The notes beneath the pieces were generated by a model that saw only the letters and a list, made by a program, of their open reading frames with translations, ran no database searches and was not told the origin of the DNA. This document shows, piece by piece, positions 45,501 to 64,000 of a stretch of 64,000 nucleotides of DNA. A program made the position numbers and the translations under genes. The stretch's first letter is position 1; each line of letters begins with the position of its first letter. This stretch comes from Prostheceraeus crozeri (taxonomy: Eukaryota > Platyhelminthes > Polycladida > Euryleptidae): assembly GCA_907163375.1 (NCBI GenBank), contig CAJQUW010003434.1:124001-188000 (forward strand). The letters run 5' to 3'.

Positions 45501-47200
45501 TATTGTAGAGTTTCAGAAAACTATTTTAAAAAGGACTGAAACATTATGATATCTTAAAATCCAGGACAGAAATTGTATAAGAATTTAATCTTCAAACAAG
45601 AATTGACAATTTCTAGAAACCCTTTTTACCAACTAAGCCATTTCAGCCAGTCAGAAAAACCAGTGTTAAACTTTCCATTCTACAACTTATGACCTCCAAC
45701 TACACTGCTCCTGGAACAGTTAATTACATACACTCTAGGTCTAATGTGGTTAGTCCACAGCTATCATGTACATGTAGATTAACTGAATCCAATATTCATC
45801 TGTTTTAGATTCATCCATCAATACATTAGCATGTAAAATCACCAGCAGAAATAATAATAATAATGACGTATTTATTTCGAGCCCTAATATTGGGAATCGT
45901 GGGGCATTCAACTTTACAAGATATGAACAAAATGCAAAAAATGTTAAGGCAAAACAACATCAAATAAATAAGTAACATGACAGTAAAAAACGGCTTGGTG
46001 ATGACAGCAAGTTACATGCTGAAGTTGCTATTACTCAATTTTGACATGGAAATTATGAAAGAATTTTGAAGCAGCGAATTAGTTATTTTGGGCATGCGAA
46101 ATTTTCCGGAGTACGGAATGTTTCCAGAAATAAGTTCGATCGGTCATGAAACTTGATCTGGTAACAATAGAAGAAGTTTCAAGTGAGGGGACTTTCTTCA
46201 CTGAAAATGTACTTGTATTCTCAAAAGCTGGCAATTTTAAGCTTAGCTGGGGTAACACGTAGTAGCTGGAAATCAGCATTGCATTACTACATGAGCATAT
46301 AGTTACAGTCATAAAGTATATAGTAGGTAGGGTGACTCAAGAAATGTCTGCATAGAGTGAAAATGTTTGCATCAAAAAATTCAGCTTTTGCGGAGATTAC
46401 GTTCTTGCGGTTTAAAAAACATCATCACTTTTTAAGAAGGGGTGTAGCCTATAGGCAGAGCTGCTTCCAGCAATATGCTGGATTTGAATCTAGCATCGTG
46501 TTACTGTATATCCAGCAACAAATGGTCATGTATAGAAAAGACTATGAATACGATGTATGCTGACTACATGTTGACGAAATGTCGTGTGTAACCGAATCAA
46601 CATTGCTAACATGCATCCCCCGGAGGGTAGAATTTAGTGCACCGATTAAGCGTAGTCGATGGAACATGGAGCACTGCAACTTTTCTATTTCATACCGTTC
46701 TACCGACTAAGTTTGCCATTTTTGCGTCATAGTCCCACAAGTGTAGACTAGCAGCATTAACGATTTATGTTCATTGTCCATTATCTCATTTTATGGTTTG
46801 ATTGTGATTGTAATGGATTTGATATAGCTATGATGAGTTGATAGAAAATTGATTGTCTAATAGCTGGGGCATTCCATCAATGGAATGCATGATGCATAAT
46901 ATTTCCTCCATGATTTCTACAGGAGATGACATCTTTTACTGGATAAGCATTGTAACAAAAGATAGGAAGCCTAAATTCACTGTCTCCGATGAAAAAGTTG
47001 ATTGATACAGGTGAAAGCAGCTGAAGTGGTCTTGAATATAGTGGAAAATGAAGCCAACATGCAGAACTCTTAACGATATTAATGAAATGTATCTGTTGAT
47101 CATCAATGCAGGATATGTTACTTCTTGGTGACATTTTCCTGAAAGCTTATGTATATGGTGAAATCGGCTAGTAGTAAGCAAAACTCCACTTCTGGACCGC
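42525..47200. other. Region upstream of recognised RAD1 exons, no assigned gene
   Basis: This stretch should contain the missing RAD1 first exon and promoter, but I could not identify them. Open frames at 43,129-43,506 and 44,580-44,951 (minus) are over 100 codons, yet neither resembles a family I know and both could be chance. A CT microsatellite lies at about 44,108-44,128. Simple AT-rich sequence fills most of 45,000-47,100. Confidence 0.4.
44037..44105. repeat. Second copy of the GC-rich half of the 745-972 retroposon
   Basis: It shares with 882-965 the order GTGGG, CCCCGTCAGGT, GGAG, CCGCC, GGAGC and GGC-ATT-G-CC with small indels. It shows the repeat is dispersed. A CT microsatellite abuts it. 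Confidence 0.5.
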
Positions 47201-47218
47201 GCAAGATGGCCGCCATCG

Positions 47219-48094
47219 CTGAGTCCCCCCCCCCCTCTGGCACGGCAGAGTGTCGTGGTCGGCCGCCGTGGTGCTTCGTGTCTGAGTCCCCCCCCTCTGG
47301 AACGACAGAGGTTGTGGTCTGTCGTGGTGTGCCGGCCAGGTGGGTCCACGTTCACAACATGTTCGCTGACGTCCCCCCTCCCCCTCTGCAACGACAGAGT
47401 GTGAGACTCGGGTGAGTTGGTCCGACCGCCTGGTTGACGTGGGCGACCGTCTAGGTTGACGTGGGCGACCGCCAGGATTAGTCTTGAGGCTATAGTGTGT
47501 GATGTTTTTGGTGCAATCTGCTGAATGTTGGGTTGTAAAATGGGTTGTTTCGAGTGGAAGGAGTGGTCGGATGAGAAAACGGAGGTCGGATTCGTATTCA
47601 GCGTGAAATTCTGCATCGGTAGGGTGAGTTTCAAGTCAATCGGAGAGAAAAAGTTTTCGGCTGACGTCCCCCCCCCTGGACAGCTTGCTTCGATTTTGGC
47701 TTCCAGTGGACGGATTTTGTCGTGCGATAGCTCGTTTGAAAGCTAAGAGTGAGACAAATTCAGTGAAAGAATCGGCTTGTTCCTATCTGTCTTCGTTCAA
47801 AAGTTAGAGCGGTTACAAGATTTTAGGTCGGAGCTCGCTCACCTGAAAAAATCCTAAGTGTCAGAGTGGCTTTGTATGGGTAAAATTTTGAAAATTTTCC
47901 AAAGTGTGGAATTTCGACCTGTGACCGTCACCAAAACATTTTTCATCAAATTTCACTGACCTCCCCCCCCCCCCCGACAGCAATCTTCTAACTTTGGTTC
48001 TAGTGGACGGATTTTGTCGTGCGATAGCTCGTTTGAAAGCTAAGAGTGAGACAAATTCAGTGAAAGAATCGGCTTGTTCCTATCTGTCTTCGTT
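47219..48094. repeat. C-tract modules and 93-bp direct repeat at the viral left flank
   Basis: Five modules carry a CTGAGTC/CTGACGTC-like start followed by a run of Cs: 47,219-47,250; 47,282-47,310; 47,365-47,400; 47,660-47,692; 47,955-47,990. Three of them end in CGACAGAG-like sequence. GGTTGACGTGGGCGACCG occurs twice (47,432 and 47,454). A 93-bp block at 47,705-47,797 recurs exactly at 48,002-48,094, each copy downstream of a C-tract module. The stretch ends about 200 bases before the viral promoter and may be the element's terminal or regulatory region. Confidence 0.7.
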
Positions 48095-48238
48095 TAGATG
48101 TGAGACGCCATTTAAGATTTTGGGACATTGGCGAAAAACGACAGAGTTAGAATTTGGGACGTTTTGGGCTGTAGCTTCAAAACGAAGCATCGGATTGGAA
48201 AACGGAGGCCAGATTTGGAATCAGCTTGATGTTATTGT

Positions 48239-48287
48239 CCAATGAGGATCATCATCCAATGAGAATCAAGCATTTCTTTATAAATAG
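48239..48287 (+). promoter_or_regulatory. Candidate viral early promoter (two CCAAT boxes and TATA box)
   Basis: CCAAT at 48,239-48,243 and 48,256-48,260 precede TATAAATAG at 48,279-48,287, about 100 bases upstream of the first ATG (48,387). A TCATTCC stretch near 48,308 fits an initiator position. This is the clearest polymerase II promoter in the window. Confidence 0.65.
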
Positions 48288-48386
48288 CGAGCCTTCCACA
48301 GTGAGAATCATTCCATCGTTGAATCACACGAGTGACGGACGCACATTTTCTCTCTCCCTAGTTCCCTATTCTATTATCCAACTAAA

Positions 48387-49162
48387 ATGGTAAGTCGCTA
48401 CTTCCCTCCCTCTCCTCCCTTGAACGTAAACTTAATACAATCTTTTTCCATTTTCAGGCATCTACTCCATCTGCTGCACTAGTAGGACAAAATGGCGGTC
48501 AAACGTTACAAGGTTCGCTACGGTCAGATCATCTACAACTGAGGCCAGTGGAAGAAACAACCAAGGTACATAATCCTACACCGCTACAGCGTAAATTTAA
48601 ACAAGTCTTGCGTTATGGCGATCATAGCGTAGTACTCCAAACGGGAATGCTCCCTTCCACGGATGTCAAGATAATGCACAATCAGTATGGGGACTACATA
48701 CTGATCCCCGTGAGTCCGTACATTCGCCACCAACTTGATATTATTGAGGAGTACGTGACATTAAATATGGACATTCCTACTCCTCTTGCTCAAGAGTGGA
48801 AGGCGAGAGATGACAAGGATACTCCCTATAGAAAGATTTGGGATGGTAATCACATTTGCCTACCGGTGTCACATTGGTGTACTTACTATAAGAAGGATGG
48901 AGATCATTCAATACCCATCAGATGTGATGAGCTCGGAGAAGGTACTTGGGATATCCTTTTCAAAGTGAATGGGCTATATTATGGTCGACACAAGGATAAT
49001 AAAATAGCCTCTCTCTCCATGCATATGGAATCCATCCTTTATATTCCGAAACCACCCAACGTGGACGACATAATTGATCAAATCCTTAACAGCAGTGGTA
49101 CGAAGCGCAAGTCGGAGAAGAATGCTACATCAAAACGCAAATCAAAGAAGGAGAATTGCTAG
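48387..49162 (+). CDS. Spliced hypothetical viral protein with basic tail
   Basis: The first exon appears to hold only the ATG (48,387-48,389). It is followed by a 68-nt intron (GTAAGT at 48,390 to TTTTCAG at 48,457). The frame then runs MASTPSAALVGQNG and on to 49,162, about 235 residues. The unspliced frame has no ATG near the start of the conserved part, which supports splicing. The middle contains SVVLQTGMLPSTD and LPVSHWCTYY. The end is a likely nuclear localisation signal (GTKRKSEKNATSKRKSKK). I do not recognise the family. Position and basic tail would suit a DNA-binding early protein, but that is a guess. Confidence 0.65.
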
Positions 49163-49196
49163 TCCTTTCCTAACTCTACCCTATGACAATTCGCTT

Positions 49197-49322
49197 ATGT
49201 GCTTTGAGTGTCGTAGACGTGGTCTTATTAGATACATTTTACTTCTTCGTTGCCATCATATCATTTGTGTATTTTGTCGTGAAAAGCATCGATGTAATTC
49301 TTCATTTTGTAATATGTTATAG
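49197..49322 (+). CDS. Small RING-like zinc-finger protein
   Basis: A 41-residue frame starts MCFECRRRGLIRYILLLRCH and continues HIICVFCREKHRC with CNSSFC. The spacing C-x2-C, then C-x-H-x2-C-x2-C, then C-x4-C resembles a short RING finger. It may be an exon of a larger spliced product, since the frame is open upstream to 49,074, overlapping the previous gene. RING proteins often act as ubiquitin ligases, but there is no direct evidence here. Confidence 0.45.
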   Translation: MCFECRRRGLIRYILLLRCHHIICVFCREKHRCNSSFCNML

Positions 49323-49356
49323 AACGTTTCCTTAGATGTGTAAATTTCCGTTTTAG

Positions 49357-49905
49357 GCTTCTATCATCATTTTTATGGATTGTGAGGGTGAACCTGTACA
49401 GGAGCTCAGTGCTATTGCTATGAACAATTGGACATATCAGATTGTTAGTGTCTATCATCAACATGCCAACTGCGATCCCAATGTTGATCAATGGGCGAGA
49501 AAACACATTCATGGACTTAATCTGAAATATTTGCAAGACTATGGCTTTTCTTGTGAAAGTGCTCTTCTTATTGACTTTAAACGATGGTTAGCTGCTTTCA
49601 ATGTTATACGCATCTTTTGTAATAATCCTGGTAAGGAGAGGAAAGTATTTCCCAATCTAATCATTGATGATATTTTGCTCCCACCTTGGGATAGTAGAGT
49701 GAATCAACATTATCATGAAGTCACGAAACGTTTTAAGGATTTGTGTGTTCCTATTTTGTCTGTTCGTTGTAGTAGCTACGTTCATAACCAATGCTTCTTT
49801 CCTCCTTACCTCAACACTGCCAAAGTCCTGTATGGTTATCATTGCTCGCTGTATGATAGTTATCAGCTGTATCTATTTTATCTCTTTCAAACCATTGATT
49901 TATAA
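49357..49905 (+). CDS. Candidate DEDDh-type exonuclease
   Basis: From the acceptor at 49,351-49,356 (TTTTAG) the frame reads ASIIIFMDCEGEPVQELSAI. A hydrophobic strand followed by D-x-E is the first motif of DEDD exonucleases. Near the C-terminus YHCSLYDSY supplies H-x4-D, the DEDDh signature. A WARKHIHGLNLKYLQDYG segment lies between. Starting at the internal ATG (49,375) would remove the first strand, so a spliced start is more likely. The acceptor exon begins GCTTCT, in frame with the shared ATG leader at 48,387. A role in viral DNA end processing or repair is possible. Confidence 0.55.
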   Translation, partial: ASIIIFMDCEGEPVQELSAIAMNNWTYQIVSVYHQHANCDPNVDQWARKHIHGLNLKYLQDYGFSCESALLIDFKRWLAAFNVIRIFCNNPGKERKVFPNLIIDDILLPPWDSRVNQHYHEVTKRFKDLCVPILSVRCSSYVHNQCFFPPYLNTAKVLYGYHCSLYDSYQLYLFYLFQTIDL

Positions 49906-49992
49906 TGCATGCTTGTTACCGTTATTCAATAAATGTTACTATGAGAAGAGTTGTTGTTTTCATGCAATGGATGGGTTAGATAAAGGGCGATC

Positions 49993-50403
49993 ATGTCTTT
50001 CTCAAACGACTGCGGAACATTACGTTTTCATAGGCAAAGTTTAAAAGGAGCTGTTCAAGATTATGTGATAAAATTTCATAAAGATGAGACCGACATCGAA
50101 GCAGTGGTCGATGATACTAGCACTCTTTTTCTAGAATTAATGAATACATTCTCTGATAGCATTATCATGGCGCGATTAGTTGCGAAAATTAAGTTTAGTC
50201 ATTTTGGAAAGCAAGAGGTGGAAAGTCGATCTTTCCATTTTGCTTCTTACTCAATGGAAGTGGTAGATCACCCCCAAGAATTTTTTAAAAGGCATATGAT
50301 AAAAATTGCTGAACGTCTTAACGCATTTAACCATCATGGTAGCAGTCTAGTGATTGAAGCGATTTCAGATATTCACATTCAACTTTCCATAAAGAAAAAT
50401 TGA
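49993..50403 (+). CDS. Conserved-type viral hypothetical protein
   Basis: A 136-residue frame: MSFSNDCGTLRFHRQSLKGA, a central IEAVVDDTSTLFLELMNTFS and RSFHFASYSMEVVDHPQEFF, ending LVIEAISDIHIQLS. The arrangement resembles an N-terminal module seen in larger proteins of adintovirus/Polinton-like elements, here standing alone. Function unknown. Its stop is three bases before the next gene. Confidence 0.55.
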   Translation: MSFSNDCGTLRFHRQSLKGAVQDYVIKFHKDETDIEAVVDDTSTLFLELMNTFSDSIIMARLVAKIKFSHFGKQEVESRSFHFASYSMEVVDHPQEFFKRHMIKIAERLNAFNHHGSSLVIEAISDIHIQLSIKKN

Positions 50404-50405
50404 AA

Positions 50406-50729
50406 ATGCAGTGGTACTTGATTGTGGCACAACTGGTTTTCGAGCTATGTCTGCTCACTCTCGAAGTATATTCCTTCTGTACATGCGTCTATTATTTAGA
50501 AAAGGCTAGCAAATTCATATCTTCAAAAAGACTTGCTATAGACATCAGTAACGGTGAAACTATGTGTTGCGATGTATGTAAGCGAAAGGATGGAAATGAA
50601 AAGCGCATCTTCAAGAGATGTAAGCATGCTTTTTGTCAACGCTGTTTCATACGTAATTGCATTCAACTTTGCCAATGTAACCACTGTGATATTGCTCATT
50701 TCGAGTGTCACTTATGTCGCAATAGTTAG
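50406..50729 (+). CDS. Membrane-anchored RING-like protein
   Basis: About 107 residues. The N-terminus is strongly hydrophobic (WYLIVAQLVFELCLLTLEVY with a following CTCVYYL), a likely signal anchor. The C-terminal half carries CCDVC, then CKHAFCQRC and CIQLCQCNHC with HLC at the end, a RING-like metal-binding array. Membrane-bound RING proteins in other viruses commonly act as ubiquitin ligases on membrane targets. That role is inferred only. Confidence 0.6.
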   Translation: MQWYLIVAQLVFELCLLTLEVYSFCTCVYYLEKASKFISSKRLAIDISNGETMCCDVCKRKDGNEKRIFKRCKHAFCQRCFIRNCIQLCQCNHCDIAHFECHLCRNS

Positions 50730-50780
50730 TACCTATGCAAATGTGGTAAAGATAGGTTTTAGCAAAGACTAACACGGAAA

Positions 50781-51137
50781 ATGGCGAAACGTAAAATGAC
50801 GAAACGTAAAAGTCAAAAGTTTTCTTCAGCCATTCAAGCTCTCCGACGAATGAAAGCAAATCAGCGATACAATGCTATACGACATGCTAACGATAAATTC
50901 ATTTGTGAAATTATTTCTCATGTGAGGAAGTTGAGGACGAAGAAATTAGCGCCAAAACAACGAAAGTTACTTAAGCGATATGCTACGAAATTGCGTTTCA
51001 ACTCCAATCCTAAAGTCGCCCTTCAAAGAAAGAGGAAAACTCTAACACAAAAGGGCGGTTTCCTTTCAGCAATACTTCCAATGATAGCTCCTGCCGTGGG
51101 CAACCTATTGGGAAATATCTTTGGCTCTAAGCGTTAA
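50781..51137 (+). CDS. Basic virion-type protein with hydrophobic C-terminus
   Basis: 118 residues. The N-terminus is very basic (MAKRKMTKRKSQKF), followed by a helical region and a KRKTLTQKGGF junction. The hydrophobic glycine-rich end AILPMIAPAVGNLLGNIFG follows. This layout recurs next to the packaging ATPase in adintovirus/Polinton-like elements. It may bind DNA and interact with membranes, but its role is not established. Confidence 0.65.
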   Translation: MAKRKMTKRKSQKFSSAIQALRRMKANQRYNAIRHANDKFICEIISHVRKLRTKKLAPKQRKLLKRYATKLRFNSNPKVALQRKRKTLTQKGGFLSAILPMIAPAVGNLLGNIFGSKR

Positions 51138-51168
51138 TTATGCAAATGTTGAGTCTCAAAGTAATAAA

Positions 51169-51784
51169 ATGGATTTCAGACTTCAATGTGATAAAGTTCT
51201 GACTGTATCAGGTCCATCTCATGCAGGTAAAACTGTTTTCACGCTGAATTTATTGGATAAAAGAAGGGAGTTGTTTAAGGAACCTATCAATCGAGTGATT
51301 TGGTGTTATGGTATTTATCAACCGTCGCTGTTTCAGGAATTGCAAAGTCGCAACTTTATTCGACATGAAGGAATTATTCCAGTGGATAAACTTCAGTCTA
51401 ATGATGTTGTTGTATTGGATGATTTATTAAAAGAAAGTAAGAATTCAAAAGATGTTACAGATATGTTCACTCGCGCAGCACACCATAAAAGGTGTTTTAT
51501 CATCTATATTACACAAAATTTGTTTCCTGATGGAAAAGAAGCTCGTACACGAAACCTGAATACACACTATTATGCTATTTTCAAGAATCCGCGAGATAAA
51601 AGTCAATTTGAAATTTTAGCGCGACAAGTTGCACCAGAGGATCAAAAGCCTTAATTGAAATTTTTCAAGCAGCTACTGAAAAACCATACGGTTACTTATT
51701 CATTGACTTTACGCAAGAGTGTCCGGAAGAATTTAGATTTCGAAGTGATATTTTGAAAACTCCCATGATTATCTACAAACTATG
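51169..51784 (+). CDS. Packaging ATPase (FtsK/HerA-like), frameshifted
   Basis: Walker A is GPSHAGKT near residue 16 and Walker B is DVVVLDDLL. ARAAHHKR and YITQNLFP segments follow. The first frame stops at about 51,654. The typical C-terminal block (EIFQAATEKPYGYLFIDF region) continues in the next frame to 51,784. The break is next to a run of four As at about 51,645. This ATPase family drives DNA into capsids. Length over both frames is about 205 residues, usual for the family. The end overlaps the next ATG by a few bases. Confidence 0.85.
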
Positions 51785-52474
51785 AGTTCTTATTCTCGCA
51801 TGATTGTTATTCCTCAGGATGAATATGTACAATTGACTGCCATGCAGCAAGTAAAGCAACCTCTTGCAAATCAAATGTATAGGAAAGAAATAGATTATCA
51901 GCAAAATGTTCACATCAAAGATCCACATCGTGCTGTATTATTACAATCGGAAACTGTTGAGCAATTGAAAAACTTGAAGAATAAGATGCGTGACTCTGTA
52001 TCGACTGCTACACCTTTAGCATCTCGCGCACATGCCATATCTCTTTTCAATAGTATTGAGCCCCATCTCAATGTAAATGATAGAGGAGAAATCATTACAG
52101 ATGAAAATAAAGTGATTGATGCTTCACGTTATGAAGACTTGATTCAGTATGCGACACGTAGAAAGCGCCGTCAGGGCTATGTTCCACCTGGTTGGTCATA
52201 CTTTCTTAAACTATTGAAAAAGCATAATGTGCCAAAATTTGCTTTAAATAATGAGACATTGAAAGAACTTCATTCAACAGTGGCTACTACTCCAATGCCT
52301 CAGGCGATGAAAATGCCAACAAATTGGTTTAAGACGTCACCTGCTACATCCCCTCCCACACTCACTAAGCAAACAAGAGGAAGAACTCGACGTAGATCTA
52401 CATCGCCACTAAAACTGGTAAAAGGAAAACGTAAAACAGCTCCTCCTAGGAAATACATGTTCTCAGACTATTAA
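51782..52474 (+). CDS. Viral structural-type protein, 230 residues
   Basis: It contains coiled-coil-like stretches (TVEQLKNLKNKMRD), then a GWSYFLKLLKKHNVPKFALN module typical of a protein found between the ATPase and integrase in this virus group. The C-terminus is Pro/Thr/Arg-rich (RGRTRRRSTSPLKLVKGKRK). Likely nucleic-acid-associated or capsid-associated. Precise function unknown. Confidence 0.6.
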   Translation: MSSYSRMIVIPQDEYVQLTAMQQVKQPLANQMYRKEIDYQQNVHIKDPHRAVLLQSETVEQLKNLKNKMRDSVSTATPLASRAHAISLFNSIEPHLNVNDRGEIITDENKVIDASRYEDLIQYATRRKRRQGYVPPGWSYFLKLLKKHNVPKFALNNETLKELHSTVATTPMPQAMKMPTNWFKTSPATSPPTLTKQTRGRTRRRSTSPLKLVKGKRKTAPPRKYMFSDY

Positions 52475-52475
52475 T

Positions 52476-52691
52476 ATGAAGCAGATGTGTTGCTTGCCAT
52501 GTAATGAGCCGCCAGAGGTGAATGTCGTTGTCACTTGCACTTGCTGCGCCAGCTCTCATAATGAAACCCCTAAGCAATGTGAACACGATCGCAAAACCGC
52601 TAAAGCTAAATGCTGTAGTTGTTGTAAATGTAGAAAGGGAAGAAAACAAAAAGATGAGAAGGAGGAAAAAGAGTCAGCCGTCATCGACTGA
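52476..52691 (+). CDS. Small cysteine-rich protein
   Basis: 71 residues with about a dozen Cys (CCLPCN, CTCCASSHN, CCSCCKCRKGRKQK) and an acidic-basic tail. It starts two bases after the previous stop and overlaps the integrase start (52,654) in another frame. The dense Cys pairs suggest metal binding. Family not recognised. Confidence 0.5.
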   Translation: MKQMCCLPCNEPPEVNVVVTCTCCASSHNETPKQCEHDRKTAKAKCCSCCKCRKGRKQKDEKEEKESAVID

Positions 52692-53742
52692 ACGTTTGAA
52701 GTCAATCTATTATGATGTAAAACATCCGGCAGGATTTGCATCTATCAAGAAATTATCAAAAGCGAGTGGTCTTCCACAATCACAAGTGAAACGATGGTTA
52801 AAGGGTCAGGCTACCTATACACTCCACAAACAAGCGAAAAAGAAGTACCGCACCCGCCATTATATTGTTCATGACATCGATGAACAGTGGCAAGCAGATT
52901 TGTGTGATGTTGCCTCCATTTCAAAACATAACTCGGGCAATAATTTTATTTTAACCGTCATTGATATTTTCTCGCGTTATGCGTGGGCTCAACCTTTAAA
53001 AACTAAAGAAGGGAAAGGAGTAGCAAAAGCATTCCAAACAATTTTTCGAGAAGGTCGCATTCCAAAAAGAATTCAGAGTGATCAAGGAAAAGAGTTTGAA
53101 AATCAGCATGTGACAAGATTATTTGAGAGGCATGACATTGAGTTGTTTAGTGTAAAGAGCGCTTATAAAGCTGCACTCGTTGAACGTTTTAATCGCACAT
53201 TAAAAAATCGCTTGTGGCGACATTTTACTACCAACTTGACACAAAATTGGACAAAGGTTCTACAAGATACACTCCATGCCTACAATCACTCTATCCATCG
53301 TTCTATTGGACTCAGACCAGTAGATGTAAATGCTGACAATGTAGATAAAGTGCGCGAATCATTCCAACGTAAACGCACTCATGTGAAAAGTGATGTGAAA
53401 ATTGGCGATAAAGTTCGTATCTCAAAAGTGAAAAGTGTTTTTGCTAAAGGGTACCTCCCGAATTGGACAGAGGAGGTATTTACAGTATCAAGGATTAATC
53501 AAAAAGACTCTCCGACCACCTACAAGTTGAAAGATTACGATAATGAAGAAATTGAGGGTAGCTTTTACCGCGATGAGATTGAGGTAGTCACTGAAAGTGA
53601 AACATATTTGGTAGAGAAAATCATTCGATGTAAAAAACGGCAAGGTGAAGAATGGTGTCTTGTTAAATGGACTGGTTATCCTTCAAGTATGAACTCTTGG
53701 ATGCGTCGTGCCGACATCTTTCATCTAAGTGATCGACAGTGA
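52654..53742 (+). CDS. Retroviral-type integrase with C-terminal chromodomain
   Basis: The DDE core has the first Asp in QWQADLCDV, the second in IQSDQGKEF and Glu in AALVERFNRTLKNR, with spacing close to D-D35-E. An SH3-like region (KIGDKVRISK) follows, then a chromodomain (YLVEKIIRCKKRQGEEW, LVKWTGYPSSMNSW). Polinton/Maverick and adintovirus integrases have this layout, and the chromodomain may steer integration to chromatin. The ATG at 52,654 (MRRRKKSQ) was chosen because upstream codons overlap the Cys-rich ORF. The frame is intact. Confidence 0.9.
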   Translation: MRRRKKSQPSSTERLKSIYYDVKHPAGFASIKKLSKASGLPQSQVKRWLKGQATYTLHKQAKKKYRTRHYIVHDIDEQWQADLCDVASISKHNSGNNFILTVIDIFSRYAWAQPLKTKEGKGVAKAFQTIFREGRIPKRIQSDQGKEFENQHVTRLFERHDIELFSVKSAYKAALVERFNRTLKNRLWRHFTTNLTQNWTKVLQDTLHAYNHSIHRSIGLRPVDVNADNVDKVRESFQRKRTHVKSDVKIGDKVRISKVKSVFAKGYLPNWTEEVFTVSRINQKDSPTTYKLKDYDNEEIEGSFYRDEIEVVTESETYLVEKIIRCKKRQGEEWCLVKWTGYPSSMNSWMRRADIFHLSDRQ

Positions 53743-53783
53743 TTCATGCAAAGTTGTAACTAACAATGTTTAGGGTTTGAGCT

Positions 53784-54240
53784 ATGAATCCAACTGCCTC
53801 ATTTTATTCACGACCCTCCTACGTAAGTGGTGGAGGACAAATTTACATCGGTGCTCGCCGCCAACGTGGAGGTAGCATACTTGGTGCACTGAAATCTGTT
53901 TGTAGCACCTCTCATATCCAATGTCGGTAGATCTTTAAAACGAAATGTTTTAAGTAATGCCGTTGGCTTTGCTGGTGATGTTGCTAGTGATCTTTCCAGA
54001 GGTAGAAGTTTTAAGAGCAGTTTGTTGAATCGTGGGAAGGAACGCGGTTTAAAAACATTGAAGCAGACCATTGCTGGTGTTACTCAAGGAAAGAAATCAC
54101 CTAAACGAATGAAAAAAGGAAGGAGGAAACATCGCGGAGCTGGTAAGGTGCGATCTTCAGTCAAAAGGCATTCACGCAAACGTCGTAGAGGCTCTAATCA
54201 TTCATCAGGCGCTAAACGACGACGCTGCTATAACTTCTAA
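53784..54240 (+). CDS. Basic minor capsid/core protein, frameshifted
   Basis: The first frame (53,784-53,930) starts MNPTASFYSRPSYVSGGGQI and has GARRQRGGSILGAL. From about 53,900 the homologous continuation is in another frame: NAVGFAGDVASDLSRG, then NRGKERGLKTLKQTI and an Arg/Lys tail (KKGRRKHRGAGK, HSRKRRRG). This resembles the basic core protein that precedes the capsid gene in adintovirus/Polinton-like elements. The single break lies between about 53,890 and 53,905. Confidence 0.7.
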
Positions 54241-54242
54241 TC

Positions 54243-55519
54243 ATGGAGTGTAAAACTTCCGGTTTTTGTTTGTTCGATCAACAAGCCATACAGACAGATA
54301 TTCTTAGTTCAAGTATTGTAGATTATCATCCTCGAACAGCTGAGAATGCTGGCCCATTGAATTTGTTATTCCTGGTGGTAGTGATGACTACATAGATTTG
54401 AGTTATGCGATGCTTGATTTGAGGTTTAGAATTCAGCAAGCAGATGGAACTGCTATTGACGATGCACATAAAGTTGGACTGAACAATTTACCATTGACTA
54501 CATTACTTCGCGATGTTTCTCTAACGATTGGAGAGCAGCAGGTGGAAGGTGGTCAAAGCGATTATCCCTATAAATCATATTTCAATCATGTATCACAGTT
54601 TCATCCAGCAGCACAAAAAAGTCATATGGAAGCCATGGGATGGTACAGAGATGAAGCAGGAAAATTTGATGTTGAAACAAACAGTGGCTTTGTAAAGCGA
54701 TCTGCTATGATTAAAGATAGTAGAGTATGTCAGCTATATGGTCCGCTGAATTTAGACTTCTTTAGACAGTCAAAGTTTTTACTCTGTAATACCAGCATGC
54801 GACTCAAGCTGACATTGAATAAGCCTGAATTTGCGCTGAATGCATTTGCTAAAGTTGACAATTTTAGAATTCATGTGGAAGATATTGCACTTTACATTCG
54901 TCGAGTAGTACCGAATCCAAGTGTCATTAGAGGGCATGCTGAAGGCCTTAACCGCCAAAATGCCATTTACCCCGTTCAGCATACAAAGCTTCTCACCTTT
55001 ACAATTCCGAAAGATCAAAAGAGTTTCATGAAAGATGGCCTCTTTCCATCGGAAGCACCGAAGCTCCTCATGGTGGCAATGGTTGAAAATGATGCATTTA
55101 ATGGTAATATAAAGAAGAATCCTTTCAATTTTAAACACAATCAGTTAAGTGAAATTGCTTTACGTGTAAATGGTGTGAGTCATCCTGGTCCACCCTACAA
55201 ACCAGATTTTGCTTCGGATCAATTTATGCGCAGTTATGTTGATTTTATGGATGTCTTTGGCTTTTACAATACGGATGACACCAACGGACTGACTATGAAA
55301 GAGTTTAAGAGTGGATATACTATTGATGCATTTGATTTGACTGCTGACAGCGATATTAGTGCACCCTATCGTCAAGCGAACGTGCCTCATAATATTCGTT
55401 TGGATTTGACGTTCAAAAGAACACTAGCTGAGACGATCAATGTATTAATTTATGCAGTTTTCGATTCAAATATTGAAATTACAAAGTATCGTGACGTGAT
55501 TCTTCAGTATAATCGTTAA
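54243..55519 (+). CDS. Major capsid protein candidate (double-jelly-roll type), frameshifted
   Basis: The start frame (MECKTSGFCLFDQQAI) stops at 54,395. The rest of the protein, from about 54,355 to 55,519, is in a second frame and includes GGSDDYIDLSYAML and LTIGEQQVEGGQSDYPYKSY. A long remainder follows, including FYNTDDTNGLTMKEF. Layout and motifs match the abundant invertebrate homologues regarded as the capsid protein of adintovirus/Polinton-like elements. The break is at a short run of Cs near 54,353. Combined length is about 425 residues. It abuts the protease gene. Confidence 0.8.
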
Positions 55520-55980
55520 TGAGTTGGTTGACTGCTGACGATATTAAGACTAAAGTGCAGCGTAATGCAGACGAAGCGACGTTGAAAGCTTTCGATAATG
55601 TCTATTCACTCGATACCTTACCACCTGCAGTAAATCACTATCCCATCTTTATTGTGCTAAACACTCATTCACAGAATTTAGGCGGTGAGCATTGGAAAGC
55701 GATCTTTATTGGAGAAGACCGACGTGGTGAACTATTTGACTCTCTTGCTCAACCTCCAAATATACCAACACAGCAGTGGTTGAGAAAACATACGCGTCAA
55801 TATCAGCGAAATGAACGCATACTACAACATCCACTTTCATCAACGTGTGGTGCTTTTGTACTGTACTTCATCTTAAGACGTTTACATGTATCTCGATTTG
55901 CATCTGTTATTCAAAACTTTTCATGTAATCCATCCTCTAATGAAAAAATGATTTGTAAGTTCTATCATGATTTGAAATAA
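55519..55980 (+). CDS. Adenain-type cysteine protease
   Basis: 153 residues, intact. The catalytic set is readable: His in GGEHWKAIF, Asp in GELFDSL, Gln in ILQHPLSS and Cys in STCGAFVLYF. This family matures capsid proteins in adenoviruses, Polintons and adintoviruses. The ATG overlaps the capsid stop (TAATG), indicating a coupled operon-like transcript. Confidence 0.85.
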   Translation: MSWLTADDIKTKVQRNADEATLKAFDNVYSLDTLPPAVNHYPIFIVLNTHSQNLGGEHWKAIFIGEDRRGELFDSLAQPPNIPTQQWLRKHTRQYQRNERILQHPLSSTCGAFVLYFILRRLHVSRFASVIQNFSCNPSSNEKMICKFYHDLK

Positions 55981-56007
55981 AAACATCATGTTGGAAAAAA
56001 TTGTTTT

Positions 56008-56553
56008 TCATTTTACAATCCGCTGGGTACGTACATACTCAATGAGATAGTCTAGGATCATATTTGCTTGTACATGAGATTTTAGTCCAGTAATGATCAC
56101 TTTACTATTATGAAAGATTGCCACATGCACAGGTAACCAACAACTAATGAGAGCTGCAGGAAAAAGTTCGGGTTCATAACACAAACTGTAACTGCTGGTA
56201 CGAATCTTCAAAAATGATAGACTGTCACTCAATTGAGTAGAGATCACCATATTGTCCACAGTCAGATTCGACATCACACACCTCTCCCTCTTCCATATCC
56301 GACGTAGTAGTCTTTGTAGCTCTAAGCGCATTGACTGCGCCGATGAATGAGAAAGGGCGCCGAGAATCTGTACAGTCCCATTTGGGAAGAGTTGAAGATT
56401 CCGTGAATTGTTCATCTTCACCACTAACATTTGAGGACGGCCCGGGTAATACTTGCTGTTTGGAAGCTGTTGGTGTAATGTTGTGAGATCGATTTTGGTG
56501 TAGAGTCTGAAGCGACGGAGAATGTTGACGATGTTGTAGTGATGGCGCTTCAT
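56008..56553 (-). CDS. TATA-binding-protein-like viral protein
   Basis: The minus-strand frame continues open to 56,697; the ATG at 56,553 was chosen to avoid overlap with unrelated codons. Two pseudo-repeats are visible: NLQLFPNGTVQILGALSHSS in the first half, and YEPELFPAALI followed by IFHNSKVIITGLKSHVQAN in the second. F-x2-G-x-V-x-I-x-G plus the YEPELFP box are hallmarks of the TBP saddle fold. Large DNA viruses are known to encode TBP-like factors, and a role in late viral transcription is plausible. It lies tail-to-tail with the protease gene. Confidence 0.65.
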   Translation of the reverse strand: MKRHHYNIVNILRRFRLYTKIDLTTLHQQLPNSKYYPGRPQMLVVKMNNSRNLQLFPNGTVQILGALSHSSAQSMRLELQRLLRRIWKRERCVMSNLTVDNMVISTQLSDSLSFLKIRTSSYSLCYEPELFPAALISCWLPVHVAIFHNSKVIITGLKSHVQANMILDYLIEYVRTQRIVK

Positions 56554-56875
56554 GATGAAAGAATGAGTAAATTGAGCGATGTACCTTCCTTTTATACTTT
56601 TCCCAACTACCTTGATGAAATGTGAAGTTAGTATGAAGTTGGGAATGATAGAGTTGAATTCGCCGATTGTTGACGCGCAGCCAGATGCGATTTCCAATAC
56701 GTGAATGTCTTTTCATATAGAAGTATTTCAAGTCCTTCATGATATGATGTAGAGATTGAAAATGACGATAAGATAAAGCAAACTCTCTTCTCACATTTCC
56801 AGTTGAATCTTTGAAATAGACGTTTCGATCATGATCCGTTTCAATACGTTGTAGGGAATCTAATTTCCAACTCAT
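56225..56875 (-). CDS. Viral duplicated-family protein A with acidic tail
   Basis: 216 residues. The first 110 or so (WKLDSLQRIETDHDRNVYFK, then FQSLHHIMKDLKYF and a WEKYKRKVHRSI motif) are paralogous to the neighbouring gene at 56,898-57,254. The C-terminal part is Ser/Thr-rich and then acidic (DMEEGEVCDVESDCG). The region 56,225-56,553 overlaps the TBP-like frame on the same strand in another frame. Family unknown. Confidence 0.55.
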   Translation of the reverse strand: MSWKLDSLQRIETDHDRNVYFKDSTGNVRREFALSYRHFQSLHHIMKDLKYFYMKRHSRIGNRIWLRVNNRRIQLYHSQLHTNFTFHQGSWEKYKRKVHRSIYSFFHHEAPSLQHRQHSPSLQTLHQNRSHNITPTASKQQVLPGPSSNVSGEDEQFTESSTLPKWDCTDSRRPFSFIGAVNALRATKTTTSDMEEGEVCDVESDCGQYGDLYSIE

Positions 56876-56897
56876 GATGTGTAGTAGTCATGTCTGA

Positions 56898-57254
56898 TTA
56901 AGATTTGCATAGTAGGGCGATGAACTCACGACGAATAAATGTCATGATGGAGCGATGTATATATCTTCTATACTTCTCCCAATTGTATTTGCGAAATGAG
57001 AAACAGTTTGCGGAATGAGAATGGTAGATTTGAATTTCATTTCTGTAATGTTGAAGCCAAACTTGATCACCCAAGGAGATGAATCTTAATGTTTCAAAAT
57101 ATTCCAAATCCCTCATGATATCATTGAGGTTGACAAATTGTCGCCATGTTAATGTAATTCCTCTTGATGTATGACCATGAGAATTTTTGAAATGTACGTT
57201 TCCATCACGATCAACTCTGATATATTGTAGAGAGTCCAAAATCCAAGTCTTCAT
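56898..57254 (-). CDS. Viral duplicated-family protein B
   Basis: About 118 residues starting MKTWILDSLQYIRV. It shares with protein A the blocks LDSLQ-I, D-D-NV-FK, R-F-L-IM-DL-YF, WL--N-IQ-YHS and WEKY-R--HRSI. It lacks the acidic extension. The start at 57,254 aligns with the paralogue; an ATG four codons upstream is possible. It is divergent from the fibre-like gene, with only 35 bases between starts, so the two probably share a promoter. Confidence 0.6.
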   Translation of the reverse strand: MKTWILDSLQYIRVDRDGNVHFKNSHGHTSRGITLTWRQFVNLNDIMRDLEYFETLRFISLGDQVWLQHYRNEIQIYHSHSANCFSFRKYNWEKYRRYIHRSIMTFIRREFIALLCKS

Positions 57255-57289
57255 GATGTTATGCAAAGTTGCAGATTAGCAATATAAAA

Positions 57290-58687
57290 ATGTCGTTTTA
57301 TCATATTTTGCTTAGCAATGCGGCTACAAAGAGATTTACTAGTAATCGAGCTGCACTCTTTTCTACTCCCATTGATCATGCACAACAGCTAAATGGGAAT
57401 TGGGAAGTGGGTGTCACTCAACTTGTTTATAGCAACTGTGTCTATACTTTTGATCATGAGGTGATGACTATTAATATGAGGCGTACAGCTGCTTATCAAT
57501 GTGAAAAGGGGTGCCGAGTATACATTCCACAGTGGCCAAAGAAAGATCTCTTATCATGTAAAAAGTTTATATATGATTTCTTGAATAAAGCGAGTAAACA
57601 TATTGTCCAATTTACTCCGCACAATGATGATTATAATTATGTACATCATGTAGTTGAGAAAGATTGGATTGTTGGTTTAAGTCCAAGTTTAAGAAATGAT
57701 TTAGGTTACCTCGCTAGCGCCTTGACAAGCTATGATAATTTTAACGTTAATTACCACATAAGTGGCCATAAACAGTTAATATATCGAGAGGAAGCTTATT
57801 ATGTAGATCTTATTCCAAGAAATGAGAAGACGTTGGTGAAGAAGATTGTGATTAAGCCAAGAAAGACAAACATGACTCCTGAAACATTATTGAAGAAATT
57901 TAATTATCTCCTTCGAGTTGATGGTAAACAAGTGGCAACATTGACTTATATTAAATCATCTAATCATATTGCAATAAGCAAATTAAATGATGATGATCTA
58001 GTATTAGTTTGTTCAAAAGATTTTCATCAGTTCTTGCGACATCGTTCTGCAGCTGTTCATGGAAAATCTGATATGCAACATTTACCATGTGAAAGGTCAA
58101 ATCAATTTGATACAGAATGGTCCGTATCTTTATACAGAAAGTGTGTAGAGCCTTTAGGTGGTATCTTACATGAAACAAGAGTGTTGATGCCTCGCATTAT
58201 TACTTCGGTTAAATTGGTTGTAGATTATTTAAATGAAGTGATTAATGACCAACATATTTCATTTTCTGAAAAAGAAGGTACTTTGTCTCTCATTATAAGT
58301 GGAAAAGGTATTGAACTAATTATGGATAAAACTCTAATGGACATTTTGGGTTTTGATCAAAATATCTTTAAAAGTGGTACTGTAACCAAAGCTAGCGCAG
58401 ACATGTCGCTATCGCGTCGTATTAACTATTTTCAGATATATTCCAATATTGGTGAAGATGTACGTGTGGGAGATGTTGAAGCTCCATTGCTAGCAATGAT
58501 ACCATACCAGCCAAAAAGCTGCAGTATTTTATCTGAGCATACTTTCAAGAAAGTGCATTATACAAAGCTGAAATCGAACTACATCCCACAAATTGATATT
58601 GCCATTTATGACGATGCTGGTGCGTTGATCCCTTTTCATAAAGATGCTGTGACAAGTATCACACTCCATTTCCGAATGAAGAGTTAA
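57290..58687 (+). CDS. Fibre/penton-like virion protein 1
   Basis: About 465 residues, intact. The N-terminal module SFYHILLSNAATKRF with QLNGNWEVGVTQLVYSN matches a motif common to virion proteins encoded beside the capsid gene in adintovirus/Polinton-like elements. Later parts are beta-rich with VLMPRIITSVKLVVDYLNEV and a C-terminal DIAIYDDAGALIPFH that resembles the end of such proteins. Likely an exposed virion component. An inverted second copy is at 61,936-63,334. Confidence 0.7.
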   Translation: MSFYHILLSNAATKRFTSNRAALFSTPIDHAQQLNGNWEVGVTQLVYSNCVYTFDHEVMTINMRRTAAYQCEKGCRVYIPQWPKKDLLSCKKFIYDFLNKASKHIVQFTPHNDDYNYVHHVVEKDWIVGLSPSLRNDLGYLASALTSYDNFNVNYHISGHKQLIYREEAYYVDLIPRNEKTLVKKIVIKPRKTNMTPETLLKKFNYLLRVDGKQVATLTYIKSSNHIAISKLNDDDLVLVCSKDFHQFLRHRSAAVHGKSDMQHLPCERSNQFDTEWSVSLYRKCVEPLGGILHETRVLMPRIITSVKLVVDYLNEVINDQHISFSEKEGTLSLIISGKGIELIMDKTLMDILGFDQNIFKSGTVTKASADMSLSRRINYFQIYSNIGEDVRVGDVEAPLLAMIPYQPKSCSILSEHTFKKVHYTKLKSNYIPQIDIAIYDDAGALIPFHKDAVTSITLHFRMKS

Positions 58688-58726
58688 TGCAAACGTATGC
58701 TAATATATTTTTCCAATGTGAATAAT

Positions 58727-60249
58727 ATGGAAAGTGAAAATAAGGACTCGTTTCTAATCTACTTGCCCAGTAATGCTTCTATGAATAAATTTCCCAAAAA
58801 TAAACCATCAGACTATCGAGTAGAATTAAATCGGCCACTGCATTTAGAAGGTGAATGGGAGGTTGGCGTTTCTAGTATTTGCTATGATAGCAATATTCAG
58901 AATGTGAATGATTTGGAAGAAATGATATTGACTCCTCGCACCCATGATGGAATAACGATGAATAATGCATTTCAGTTCCCATACAATTTAACATCAGATG
59001 GAAAGTGGAACTATGAATGGATTCAGATAAAATCAGATTCTTATGAACCATTTGGGAATGAGAAAATTATTAAGGCATTCAACAGTGGTAATACTTCCAT
59101 CATGAAGAATAAAAATCAGAAAGCTTATGAGTTTACTATCTATCGTTGGAGTGGGAGACAGTTCCTCCGCTTTCATTCTTTTACTAAAGGTCTTACGCTG
59201 AGGTTGGATAGTGAATTCTATCCACATCTTGGTTTTGGTCATGGACTACATCTAACGTCAATTGCTACTGCAAATGTTAAAAAGTTTATTCAAATCGAAT
59301 CAACAAATTTCATTATAGATTTAAAATATTTGATGAAGATGTTGTAGAATGCGAAGAACGCATCATTTTGAAAAAGCGTGGTGTTCAACCTTTATCACTT
59401 ATTGAGTTAGTAAAACGATGGAATGAGACTGTGGGTAAGATGTATGGAGAGAAAATTATGGCGGACAAAAATAAGTTGGTTATTCAGAAATATAATGACA
59501 AACTTACAGTTTATTTCTCTCCAACCTTGCGTCATTTTGTAAGACATTATACACCTATTATTGGAAGCGGTGTGGTGTACGCTTCTCATGAATATCACAC
59601 TAAAGCTGATTCAGTTAATGATGAATGGTGGGTGGACATCTATGGTGATCGCATCAAGAAAATTTACCAGTCTTATGAAGAATCTAAAGTTGCTATCAAT
59701 ATAATGCCGCGTCTATATCATACAGTTGAAAGCTTCATTCATGTAGTAAATCCTTATATACAACAGAAGTTGAAGCATGTGATGAAAAGTAAATATGATG
59801 TAAAGACACACCACATTTCGTTTTCAATTGAAAATCAACGCGTTGTTCTGAGACTGGGTGATGACATTCAATGTCAATTGAGTAAAAATTTGAAAAAACT
59901 CTTTGGTTTTTCAATGCTACTACAAACTGTGTTTGCTGCTGCGCATACGATTGGTATAGAAACACCAATGACACTTGATAAACATGAACAGCACCTTTAC
60001 ATTCAAAGTGATTTGATTCTACCTATTTCTGTTGGTGAGAAAAAAGAATACATTTTACGTGATTTCATTCATGATAAAGACGCTTCATATGGAATAGTCG
60101 AGAAGATGTTTGAATCTATTTTCTATCATCCCGTCGTCAAACAAACTATACCCTCTATTGCTATCAAAATTACCAATGGTTTACAAGAGTGCATCCACGT
60201 GAAAGATACTAAATCCCTCATAACGTTAGTGTTTCGGAAAACAAAGTGA
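58727..60249 (+). CDS. Fibre/penton-like virion protein 2, frameshifted
   Basis: The N-terminus DSFLIYLPSNASMNKFPKNK with LEGEWEVGVSSICYD is the same module as in protein 1. The first frame ends at 59,347. The continuation (KKRGVQPLSLIELVKRW onward, ending LITLVFRKTK) is in another frame to 60,249. The break is at a run of As near 59,283. The inverted copy has one more A there and is uninterrupted at that point. Confidence 0.7.
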
Positions 60250-60332
60250 AGTCACTTTATACAAACATTTAGTGAAATTTTGTACATGATGTGAAAGCAA
60301 TAGACTTTCTAAGTATAACAAGGTCTATGGCT

Positions 60333-61896
60333 TCACATTTTTGTACATAATTTCAATAATGTAGTATAAAGAATTAACTTTGTTTTCCGAAACACTAACG
60401 TTATGAGGGATTTAGAATCTTTCACATGGATGCACTCTTGTAAACCATTGGTAATTTTGATAGCAATAGAGGGTATAGTTTGTTTGACGACGGGATGATA
60501 GAAAAATAGATTCAAACATCTTCTCGACTATTCCATATGAAGCGTCTTTATCATGAATGAAATCACGTAAAATGTATTCTTTTTTCTCGCCAACAGAAAT
60601 AGGTAGAATCAAATCACTTTGAATGTAAAGGTGCTGTTCATGTTTATCAAGTGTCATTGGTGTTTCAATACCAATCGTATGCGCAGCAGCAAACACAGTT
60701 TGTAGCATTGAAAAACCAAAGAGTATTTTCAAATTTTTACTCAATTGACATTGAATGTCATCACCCAGTTTCAGAACAACGCGTTGATTTTCAATTGAAA
60801 ACGAAATGTGGTGTGTCTTTACATCATATTTACATTTCATCACATGCTTCAACTTCTGTTGTATATAAGGATTTACTACATGAATGAAGCTTTCAACTGT
60901 ATGATATAGACGCGGCATTATATTGATAGCAACTTTAGATTCTTCATAAGACTGGTAAATTTTCTTGATGCGATCGCCATAGATGTCCACCCACCATTCA
61001 TCATTAACTGAATCAGCTTTAGTGTGATATTCATGAGAAGCATACACCACACCGCTTCCAATAATAGGTGTATAATGTCTTACAAAATGACGCAAGGTTG
61101 GAGAGAAATAAACTGTAAGTTTGTCATTATATTTCTGAATAACCAACTTATTTTTGTCCGCCATAATTTTCTCTCCATACTTCTTACCCACAGTCTCATT
61201 CCATCGTTTTACTAACTCAATAAGTGATAAAGGTTGAACACCACGCTTTTTCAAAATGATGCGTTCTTCGCATTCTACAACATCTTCATCAAATATTTTA
61301 AATCTATAATGAAAATTGTTGATTCGATTTGAATAAACTTTTTTAACATTTGCAGTAGCAATTGACGTTAGATGTAGTCCATGACCAAAACCAAGATGTG
61401 GATAGAATTCACTATCCAACCTCAGCGTAAGACCTTTAGTAAAAGAATGAAAGCGGAGGAACTGTCTCCCACTCCAATGATAGATAGTAAACTCATAAGC
61501 TTTCTGATTTTTATTCTTCATGATGGAAGTATTACCACTGTTGAATGCCTTAATAATTTTCTCATTCCCAAATGGCTCATAAGAATCTGATTTTATCTGA
61601 ATCCATTCATAGTTCCACTTTCCATCTGATGTTAAATTGTATGGGAACTGAAATGCATTATTCATCGTTATTCCATCATGGGTGCGAGGAGTCAATATCA
61701 TTTCTTCCAAATCATTCACATTCTGAATATTGCTATCATAGCAAATACTAGAAACGCCAACCTCCCATTCACCTTCTAAATGCAGTGGCCGATTTAATTC
61801 TACTCGATAGTCTGATGGTTTATTTTTGGGAAATTTATTCATAGAAGCATTACTGGGCAAGTAGATTAGAAACGAGTCCTTATTTTCACTTTCCAT
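60333..61896 (-). pseudogene. Inverted copy of fibre-like protein 2
   Basis: It matches 58,727-60,249 with a few substitutions and one 3-base deletion. It is open where the first copy is broken. It has its own break at a T/A run near 60,505, which shifts the last 40 residues. The stop after FRKTK present in the first copy is replaced here by Leu, extending the end by 13 residues to 60,333. Confidence 0.8.
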
Positions 61897-61935
61897 ATTA
61901 TTCACATTGGAAAAATATATTAGCATACGTTTGCA

Positions 61936-63334
61936 TTAACTCTTCATTCGGAAATGGAGTGTGATACTTGTCACAGCATCTTTATGAAAAGGAATCAACG
62001 CACCAGCATCGTCATAAATGGCAATATCAATTTGTGGGATGTAGTTTGATTTCAGCTTTGTATAATGCACTTTCTTGAAAGTATGCTCAGATAAAATACT
62101 GCAGCTTTTTTGGCTGGTATGGTATCATTGCTAGCAATGGAGCTTCAACATCTCCCACACGTACATCTTCACCAATATTGGAATATATCTGAAAATAGTT
62201 AATACGACGCGATAGCGACATGTCTGCGCTAGCTTTGGTTACAGTACCACTTTTAAAGATATTTTGATCAAAACCCAAAATGTCCATTAGAGTTTTATCC
62301 ATAATTAGTTCAATACCTTTTCCACTTATAGTGAGAGACAAAGTACCTTCTTTTCAGAAAATGAAATATGTTGCTCATTAATCACTTCATTTAAATAATC
62401 TACAACCAATTTAACCGAAGTAATAATGCGAGGCATCAACACTCTTGTTTCATGTAAGATACCACCTAAAGGCTCTACACACTTTCTGTATAAAGATACG
62501 GCCCATTCTGTATCAAATTGATTTGACCTTTCACATGGTAAATGTTGCATATCAGATTTTCCATGAACAGCTGCAGAACGATGTCGTAAGAACTGATGAA
62601 AATCTTTTGAACAAACTAATACTAGATCATCATCATTTAATTTGCTTATTGCAATATGATTAGATGATTTAATATAAGTCAATGTTGCCACTTGTTTACC
62701 ATCAACTCGAAGGAGATAATTAAATTTCTTCAATAATGTTTCAGGAGTCATGTTTGTCTTTCTTGGCTTAATCACAATCTTCTTCACCAACGTCTTCTCA
62801 TTTCTTGGAATAAGATCTACATAATAAGCTTCCTCTCGATATATTAACTGTTTATGACCACTTATGTGGTAATTAACGTTAAAATTATCATAGCTTGTTA
62901 AGGCGCTAGCGAGGTAGCCTAAATCATTTCTTAAACTTGGACTTAAACCAACAATCCAATCTTTCTCAACTACATGATGTACATAATTATAATCATCATT
63001 GTGCGGAGTAAATTGGACAATATGTTTACACGCTTTATTCAAGAAATCATATATAAACTTTTTACATGATAAGAGATCTTTCTTTGGCCACTGTGGAATG
63101 TATACTCGGCACCCCTTTTTCACATTGATAAGCAGCTGTACGCCTCATATTAATAGTCATCACCTCATGATCAAAAGTATAGACACAGTTGCTATAAACA
63201 AGTTGAGTGACACCCACTTCCCAATTTCCATTTAGCTGTTGTGCATGATCAATGGGAGTAGAAAAGAGTGCGGCTCGATTACTAGTAAATCTCTTTGTAG
63301 CCGCATTGCTAAGCAAAATATGATAAAACGACAT
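61936..63334 (-). pseudogene. Inverted copy of fibre-like protein 1
   Basis: It is colinear with 57,290-58,687 at high identity but broken by at least three single-base length changes: near 63,112 (A/G run after CEKG), near 62,335 and near 62,105. All lie in or beside short homopolymers. The first copy is intact at the same sites. Confidence 0.8.
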
Positions 63335-63369
63335 TTTTATATTGCTAATCTGCAACTTTGCATAACATC

Positions 63370-63777
63370 ATGAAGACTTGGATTTTGGACTCTCTACAAT
63401 ATATCAGAGTTGATCGTGATGGAAACGTACATTTCAAAAATTCTCATGGTCATACATCAAGAGGAATTACATTAACATGGCGACAATTTGTCAACCTCAA
63501 TGATATCATGAGGGATTTGGAATATTTTGAAACATTAAGATTCATCTCCTTGGGTGATCAAGTTTGGCTTCAACATTACAGAAATGAAATTCAAATCTAC
63601 CATTCTCATTCCGCAAACTGTTTCTCATTTCGCAAATACAATTGGGAGAAGTATAGAAGATACATACATCGCTCCATCATGACATTTATTCGTCGTGAGT
63701 TCATCGCCCTACTATGCAATCTTAATAGATATGTTACAGCCCAAGAGGTTGAAATAAGATTCCCTACAACATATTGA
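63370..63777 (+). CDS. Inverted copy of viral duplicated-family protein B
   Basis: It is identical to 56,898-57,254 for nearly its full length (MKTWILDSLQ through FIRREFIALLC). It then reads through into NLNRYVTAQEVEIRFPTTY because one A is missing and the sequence beyond has diverged. Downstream (63,740-64,000) a degraded version of protein A is visible. Confidence 0.7.
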   Translation: MKTWILDSLQYIRVDRDGNVHFKNSHGHTSRGITLTWRQFVNLNDIMRDLEYFETLRFISLGDQVWLQHYRNEIQIYHSHSANCFSFRKYNWEKYRRYIHRSIMTFIRREFIALLCNLNRYVTAQEVEIRFPTTY

Positions 63778-64000
63778 CACGGCTCATGATCGCAAACGTC
63801 TTTTCAAAGATACAACTGGAAATGTGAGAAGAGAGTATTTTATTTCACTTATCGTATTATAATCTCTTACATCCTATCATGGAAGGACATGAAATACTTC
63901 TATAGAAAAGAAATCAGTATTGAATCGCCTCTGGAGCGGTCACAACGGTCGGAATTCACTACTCCTCCAACTTCATCCTAATTACATTTAAAAGGAAGTT
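63740..64000 (+). pseudogene. Degraded inverted copy of viral protein A
   Basis: Pieces equal to DSTGNVRRE, MKDLKYFYMK and the downstream region can be followed to the window end, with indels and substitutions absent from the rest of the arm. Confidence 0.6.

Follow-up and report, generated by a model that had tools for sequence, protein, structure and literature searches.

Does a Polinton/Maverick-type element of the flatworm Prostheceraeus crozeri replicate without a family-B DNA polymerase (PolB) of its own, or does the available sequence end before the gene is reached? The question is raised by 64,000 nucleotides of contig CAJQUW010003434.1 (positions 124,001 to 188,000; hereafter the window, numbered from its first base). 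An earlier note had described the right end of the window as a Polinton- or adintovirus-like element with an unusual gene set and no visible PolB, and had proposed that the polymerase lies in a second arm or that the lineage borrows its replication enzymes. The window consists of eukaryotic DNA in which transposable elements of ordinary kinds occur (reverse transcriptases, a Tc5-type transposase, a THAP gene). The Polinton/Maverick-type element begins at ~48.3 kb, its genes were identified between ~48.3 and 60.3 kb, and ~12 kb of single-copy sequence is visible. These ~12 kb probably represent the left portion of a Polinton/Maverick-type virus, of the order of the adintoviruses, that has integrated into the genome, on a contig that folded back on itself at ~60.31 kb.

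The identity of the element is carried by its integrase, its capsid protein and its penton-base proteins:

52522..53742, + strand: RVE integrase with a C-terminal chromodomain (Pfam, motifs, PDB matches to integrases and HP1)
54243..55519, + strand: predicted double jelly-roll major capsid protein, MCP (relatives, comparison with protein P0050, model and fold matches)
57269..58687, + strand: predicted penton-base protein 1 (49 relatives, structure model, fold matches)
58697..60249, + strand: predicted second penton-base protein, paralogous to the first; its left-arm copy is split over two open reading frames (ORFs), with a frame change between 59347 and 59368

Both integrase domains exceeded their Pfam cut-offs (rve, E 1.2e-10, 41.9 bits against 32.6; Chromo, E 6.4e-7, 29.6 bits against 25.1) and the catalytic residues D126, D187 and E221 were present, confirming the chromodomain integrase that had been proposed. 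For what had been a capsid candidate, 455 database relatives were found, and the model and its fold matches indicate a double jelly-roll MCP; its reading frame shifts between 54353 and 54368. The modelled structure of penton 1 is that of a penton-base protein, a single jelly roll interrupted by a long, apparently threefold-repeated insertion, and sequence comparison (22.6% identity, E 4e-13) identifies penton 2 as its paralogue. The genes previously called fibre-like encode penton-base proteins instead, the first assigned by fold and the second as its paralogue. Because an RVE integrase with a chromodomain, a double jelly-roll MCP and a penton occur together, the proposal of an element of the Polinton/adintovirus type is supported. 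By analogy with the family, the integrase would serve integration of the element, and the MCP and pentons would build the virion.

A virus-like mobile element with its own gene for a TATA-binding protein (TBP) is the feature of this locus worth retaining. The gene lies on the opposite strand, next to two small paralogues:

56008..56553, - strand: TBP homologue with two lobes (Pfam, relatives, TBPs in the PDB; start set from relative P0170)
56225..56875, - strand: d1, small paralogue, with its conserved portion (56539-56875) directly next to the TBP start
56898..57266, - strand: d2, small paralogue (alignment with d1)

The Pfam TBP model matched in two stretches (E 9.9e-20; 70.6 bits, where the cut-off is 22.9). 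Solved TBP sequences matched in 35 cases at E <= 0.01, the best at 3.9e-24 using the family profile (17 sequences, the window's own and 16 of 24 relatives), and a single PDB match in the profile search spans both lobes. NCBIfam TBP models also matched, below their cut-offs (66.4 against 181 bits). The Pfam and PDB results thus bear out the TBP-like protein of the earlier note. With the same query, the 24 database relatives scored 71-318 bits and solved cellular and archaeal TBPs 32-49 bits, and the homologue is on this evidence assigned to a divergent group. The neighbouring pair had been reported as a gene duplication, in line with the 44% identity of d1 and d2 over 112 aa. A resemblance to PC4-like transcription cofactors, judged by eye, was rejected, as no PC4 was found in Pfam or the PDB profile search.

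The TBP homologue is most likely the element's promoter-recognition factor, which would recruit host TFIIB and Pol II to element promoters. A possible but less likely function is that of a decoy, which would bind host TFIIA/TFIIB or TATA sites and damp host transcription. In the TBP profile alignment, three of four residues that we take to be the DNA-intercalating phenylalanines of TBP-DNA structures are kept; the fourth, in the N-terminal lobe, aligns with a proline, so that DNA bending may be altered as the decoy would have it, whereas retention of the other three and of the C-terminal lobe argues against a decoy. Of the 15 element gene starts, just 3 have a TATAWAW within the 200 nt upstream, in one case at -7, as might be expected of a decoy, while a TATAAAA 43 nt upstream of the TBP homologue's own start argues against one. 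Counting both strands, the 12 kb contain 8 such sites; with 3 of 15 starts preceded by one and no control count, TATA boxes were rejected as a sign of TBP use.

Viral TBPs have been reported from seven families of large double-stranded DNA (dsDNA) viruses in a 2024 study (PMC11410667). The element shares with these viruses, for example African swine fever virus with its gene B263R, a virus-type genome encoding a TBP homologue; it differs in being a Polinton-type element of medium size whose identified genes include no RNA polymerase. None of the literature-search hits that were listed, judged from their listing entries, describes a TBP in a Polinton-type element, and TBP is not mentioned in PMC11071296. 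If true, a TBP in a roughly Polinton-sized element would carry the range of virus-encoded general transcription factors beyond the large dsDNA viruses, into the adenovirus-like branch. It would also suggest that, even without visible RNA polymerase genes, a virus can supply the host polymerase with its own promoter-recognition factor.

Whether the element is complete depends on a palindrome that the earlier note had missed, and which self-comparison of the window resolved into two arms:

56605..60307, + strand: left palindrome arm
60308..64000, - strand: right palindrome arm, an inverted copy of the left, judged a fold-back artefact

The palindrome is mirrored around one point near 60.31 kb, with a loop of ~12 nt. 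Its arms are 99% identical over 3.35 kb, and the centre and outer flank are less alike. Over the 3,351 aligned positions of the arm zone (56890-60246), the two arms differ by 27 substitutions, of which 18 are transitions, and gaps open 8 times. In the 258 aligned positions of the outer zone (56605-56889, with its right-arm counterpart beyond 63.72 kb), gaps open 26 times and 2 of the 22 substitutions are transitions; in the 56 positions of the centre zone (60247-60307), gaps open 7 times and 1 of the 8 substitutions is a transition. The arm zone differs from the outer and centre zones together both in its share of transitions (Fisher p 9.8e-6) and in substitutions versus gaps (Fisher p 0.0055). 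Furthermore, the outer substitutions are strand-asymmetric in right-arm orientation (A>C 7 versus T>G 1; T>A 9 versus A>T 0; n=23, from a slightly different alignment than the zone count of 22). Such asymmetry is unexpected of mutation but is produced by base-calling error; with their many indels and transversions, the differences in the outer and centre zones look like uncorrected read error.

The differences within the arm zone are of another kind. Fourteen of 25 coding differences are silent, against an expected fraction of 0.20 (p 9.6e-5; penton 1, 8/12; penton 2, 6/13), and an independent public protein, P0001, carries the right-arm residue at all four amino-acid differences between the arms in penton 1. 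Mostly transitions and often silent, the arm-zone differences resemble those between two haplotypes; the silent excess and the agreement of P0001 at 4/4 sites indicate that the right arm represents a genuine second haplotype or copy. A long read that folded back, or a chimera, would have turned the contig back on itself at ~60.31 kb; joined to the contig, it would be unsupported at the junction and far end and corrected in between. The right arm would then add no new sequence, being 56.6-60.3 kb over again from a second haplotype or copy. Fold-backs made up ~0.55-0.6% of Oxford Nanopore Technologies genomic reads in one survey (PMC12870357).

Several observations weigh against a fold-back. Transitions in the outer and centre zones (3/30) fall below the expectation for random error (p 0.0033), and only 6 of 24 deleted outer-zone bases lie next to a like base, which is not textbook nanopore homopolymer error. 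A head-to-head join of two haplotypes presupposes that the read that folded back derives from one haplotype and the contig from the other. In the right arm, T>A is in excess (6 against 1), a sign that errors account for some of the arm differences as well, and penton 2, taken alone, has no clear silent excess. The palindrome might instead be real, with two element copies head to head, or an inverted duplication of one genome, and gene conversion homogenising 3.35 kb. We regard this as unlikely. Arms of 99% identity with a less similar centre and outer flank are the pattern expected of a conversion tract, the arm differences are partly under coding constraint, and snap-back defective genomes or concatemer junctions can be cited as forms of inverted duplication. 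However, old neutral divergence should be transition-rich and indel-poor, whereas in the centre and outer flank indels are as frequent as substitutions and transitions are few, and the outer-flank changes are strand-asymmetric. Gene conversion on an old palindrome was the explanation first considered, and was rejected on the type of differences between the arms. A fold-back of the contig carries a useful warning, in that genes counted across it can give a truncated element the appearance of being whole and of lacking a polymerase.

The polymerase itself was sought in all 30 ORFs of at least 80 aa that overlap 46.5-64.0 kb (longest, 504 aa), with Pfam matches considered to E 1, and none of the 30 matched any polymerase model. 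It is therefore correct that no PolB is visible between 48.3 and 60.3 kb, but the absence carries little weight because the probable fold-back cuts the element off near 60.3 kb. A PolB in the second arm, as had been suggested, is not found in its visible 3.7 kb, which are an inverted copy of 56.6-60.3 kb. Replication with borrowed enzymes is neither supported nor refuted, as the right part of the element lies outside the window. Since Polintons are described as 15-20 kb long (PMC4028283) and ~12 kb of single-copy element is visible here, there is room for a polymerase gene. It probably lies to the right of 60.3 kb, and replication would then be protein-primed by that PolB, as in the family; that such a gene follows is assumed from the family and not seen, which counts against this reading. 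A lineage truly without its own PolB, replicating with host or helper enzymes, is improbable in our view. None was found across 12 kb of the element, genomes are known that combine adenovirus-class virion proteins with the lack of any recognisable PolB or integrase (PMC11071296), and most Polinton-like viruses are described without pPolB and RVE integrase (PMC11071308). In contrast to those published PolB-less genomes, however, the present element has an RVE integrase, and its right part is outside the visible sequence. Very improbable indeed is the combination of a genuine palindrome with a Polinton-type virus that lacks PolB, replicates with borrowed machinery and regulates its expression through its own TBP and two paralogous small co-factors.

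Measured against known systems, the element shares with Polintons/Mavericks the RVE integrase, the double jelly-roll MCP (PY), the penton (PX) and, as candidates, ATPase-like and adenain-like genes (PMC4028283). It differs from them in that no PolB was seen, a TBP gene is present and terminal inverted repeats were not found; moreover, its two pentons lie downstream of the protease and of TBP, d1 and d2, and not adjacent to or one gene from the MCP. With adintoviruses it shares a retrovirus-like integrase with a C-terminal chromodomain, hexon-like and penton proteins and, as reported for some of their genomes, duplicated pentons, whereas their defining PolB with an OTU-like domain is not seen in the visible part (PMC11071296). 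No inverted repeat links 47-48.4 kb to the palindrome centre, the right end of the element being outside the window. Two 160-nt direct repeats with C-runs, 86% alike, lie just left of the first gene (47668-47827 and 47965-48124), and the left end of the element may be near these repeats or at ~47.17 kb.

Relatives with a genomic context were sought in databases that may omit records near the window's genome. The MCP relatives examined numbered 120 of 455; the MCP alignment was built from 20 of those 120 and the penton alignment from 21 of 49 relatives. Scans of viral contigs with the MCP, the integrase and the penton, MCP and TBP alignments confirmed no such relative, nor did scans of genome contigs with the MCP and penton alignments. 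A search with a degenerate DNA pattern that encodes NTDDTNG, a motif of the MCP, yielded 21 loci. Against these, tblastn with the 15 element ORF products gave nothing better than E 0.47, and among 193 relatives only the MCP relative P0074 matched, at two loci (5e-4, 33% over 69 aa). MCP and penton relatives occur on records of equal size (21290, 16350, 9770 and 6173), a hint of linkage; the evidence is weak because the equal sizes 1196 and 1862, also common to both, are too short to hold both genes. By eye, no record size was shared between the 24 TBP relatives and the 49 penton relatives plus 120 of 455 MCP relatives. One MCP relative, P0051 (86% identical), is filed in a 'Pseudomonadota' metagenome-assembled genome and is probably eukaryotic contamination of a bacterial bin.

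Reading frames are broken in the MCP, left penton 2, right pentons 1 and 2 and probably the ATPase. The right-arm copy of penton 1 has three frame changes; that of penton 2 is open over 60412-61926, with a frame change near its 3' end. A near-identical MCP (P0050) and penton 1 (P0001) are intact in other public records; of the eight gaps that separate the arms, four lie in A/T runs 4 or 5 nt long. The breaks may reflect decay or residual read errors.

The remaining genes of the element are as follows:

48387..49162, + strand: first element gene, no family match (frame read across an inferred intron)
49375..49905, + strand: DEDDh exonuclease candidate (motifs only: DxE at residue 2, HxxxxD at residue 156)
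50400..50729, + strand: RING-like ORF (strict C3HC4 pattern from 50568)
50781..51137, + strand: core-protein candidate, adenovirus mu-like (Adeno_PX E 0.0024, below cut-off)
51121..51654, + strand: packaging-ATPase candidate (Walker A GPSHAGKT, Walker B VVVLDD)
51782..52474, + strand: basic protein without credible family match (ORF)
55519..55980, + strand: adenain/Ulp1-type cysteine protease candidate (C48 and C5 matches; HW and STCG motifs)

The first gene appears, from its reading frame, to have a 68-nt GT-AG intron (48390-48457) straight after its ATG, 108 nt upstream of which sits a TATAAAT. The exonuclease retains its two motifs but is weakened by the lack of any Pfam, NCBIfam or PDB match. 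Of two reported RING-like proteins, one has the strict pattern, though no Pfam RING model matched it, and the other had zf-RING_5 at E 0.34 as its sole match. The core protein, packaging ATPase and adenain-type protease keep their matches or motifs, all with family scores below curated cut-offs: 18.1 bits against 25 for Adeno_PX; E 0.0032 for a PHROG 'ATPase' and 0.079 for Pox_A32; E 0.001 (19.4 bits against 20.7) for C48 and 0.048 for C5. The ATPase frame seems broken near its 3' end, judged by eye from a three-frame translation. The A32-like ATPase would act in DNA packaging and the adenain-like protease in virion maturation.

Two further observations concern the proteins described above. 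The N-terminal region of the integrase appears to have a helix-turn-helix at residues 43-105, with a weak DUX4 homeodomain match (3.5e-5 for the whole sequence, no single stretch passing); an HHCC finger was looked for in this region and not found. The penton 1 insertion (residues ~90-366) is predicted to form three similar helix-strands-helix units.

Elsewhere in the window, identical 300-nt direct repeats (2252-2551 and 6603-6902) flank a 929-aa ORF (3611-6400, - strand) that weakly matches GIY-YIG (0.0078); this may be a Penelope-like element of recent origin. A Tc5/pogo-type DDE transposase at 31117-32542 is probably frame-broken, since it is split over two overlapping ORFs (DDE_1, 2.4e-18 and 9.5e-21). 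Inverted repeats of 262 nt, 97% alike (15725-15986 and 19000-19261), bracket the region of a reverse-transcriptase ORF (17324-18832; RVT_1, 2.2e-31).

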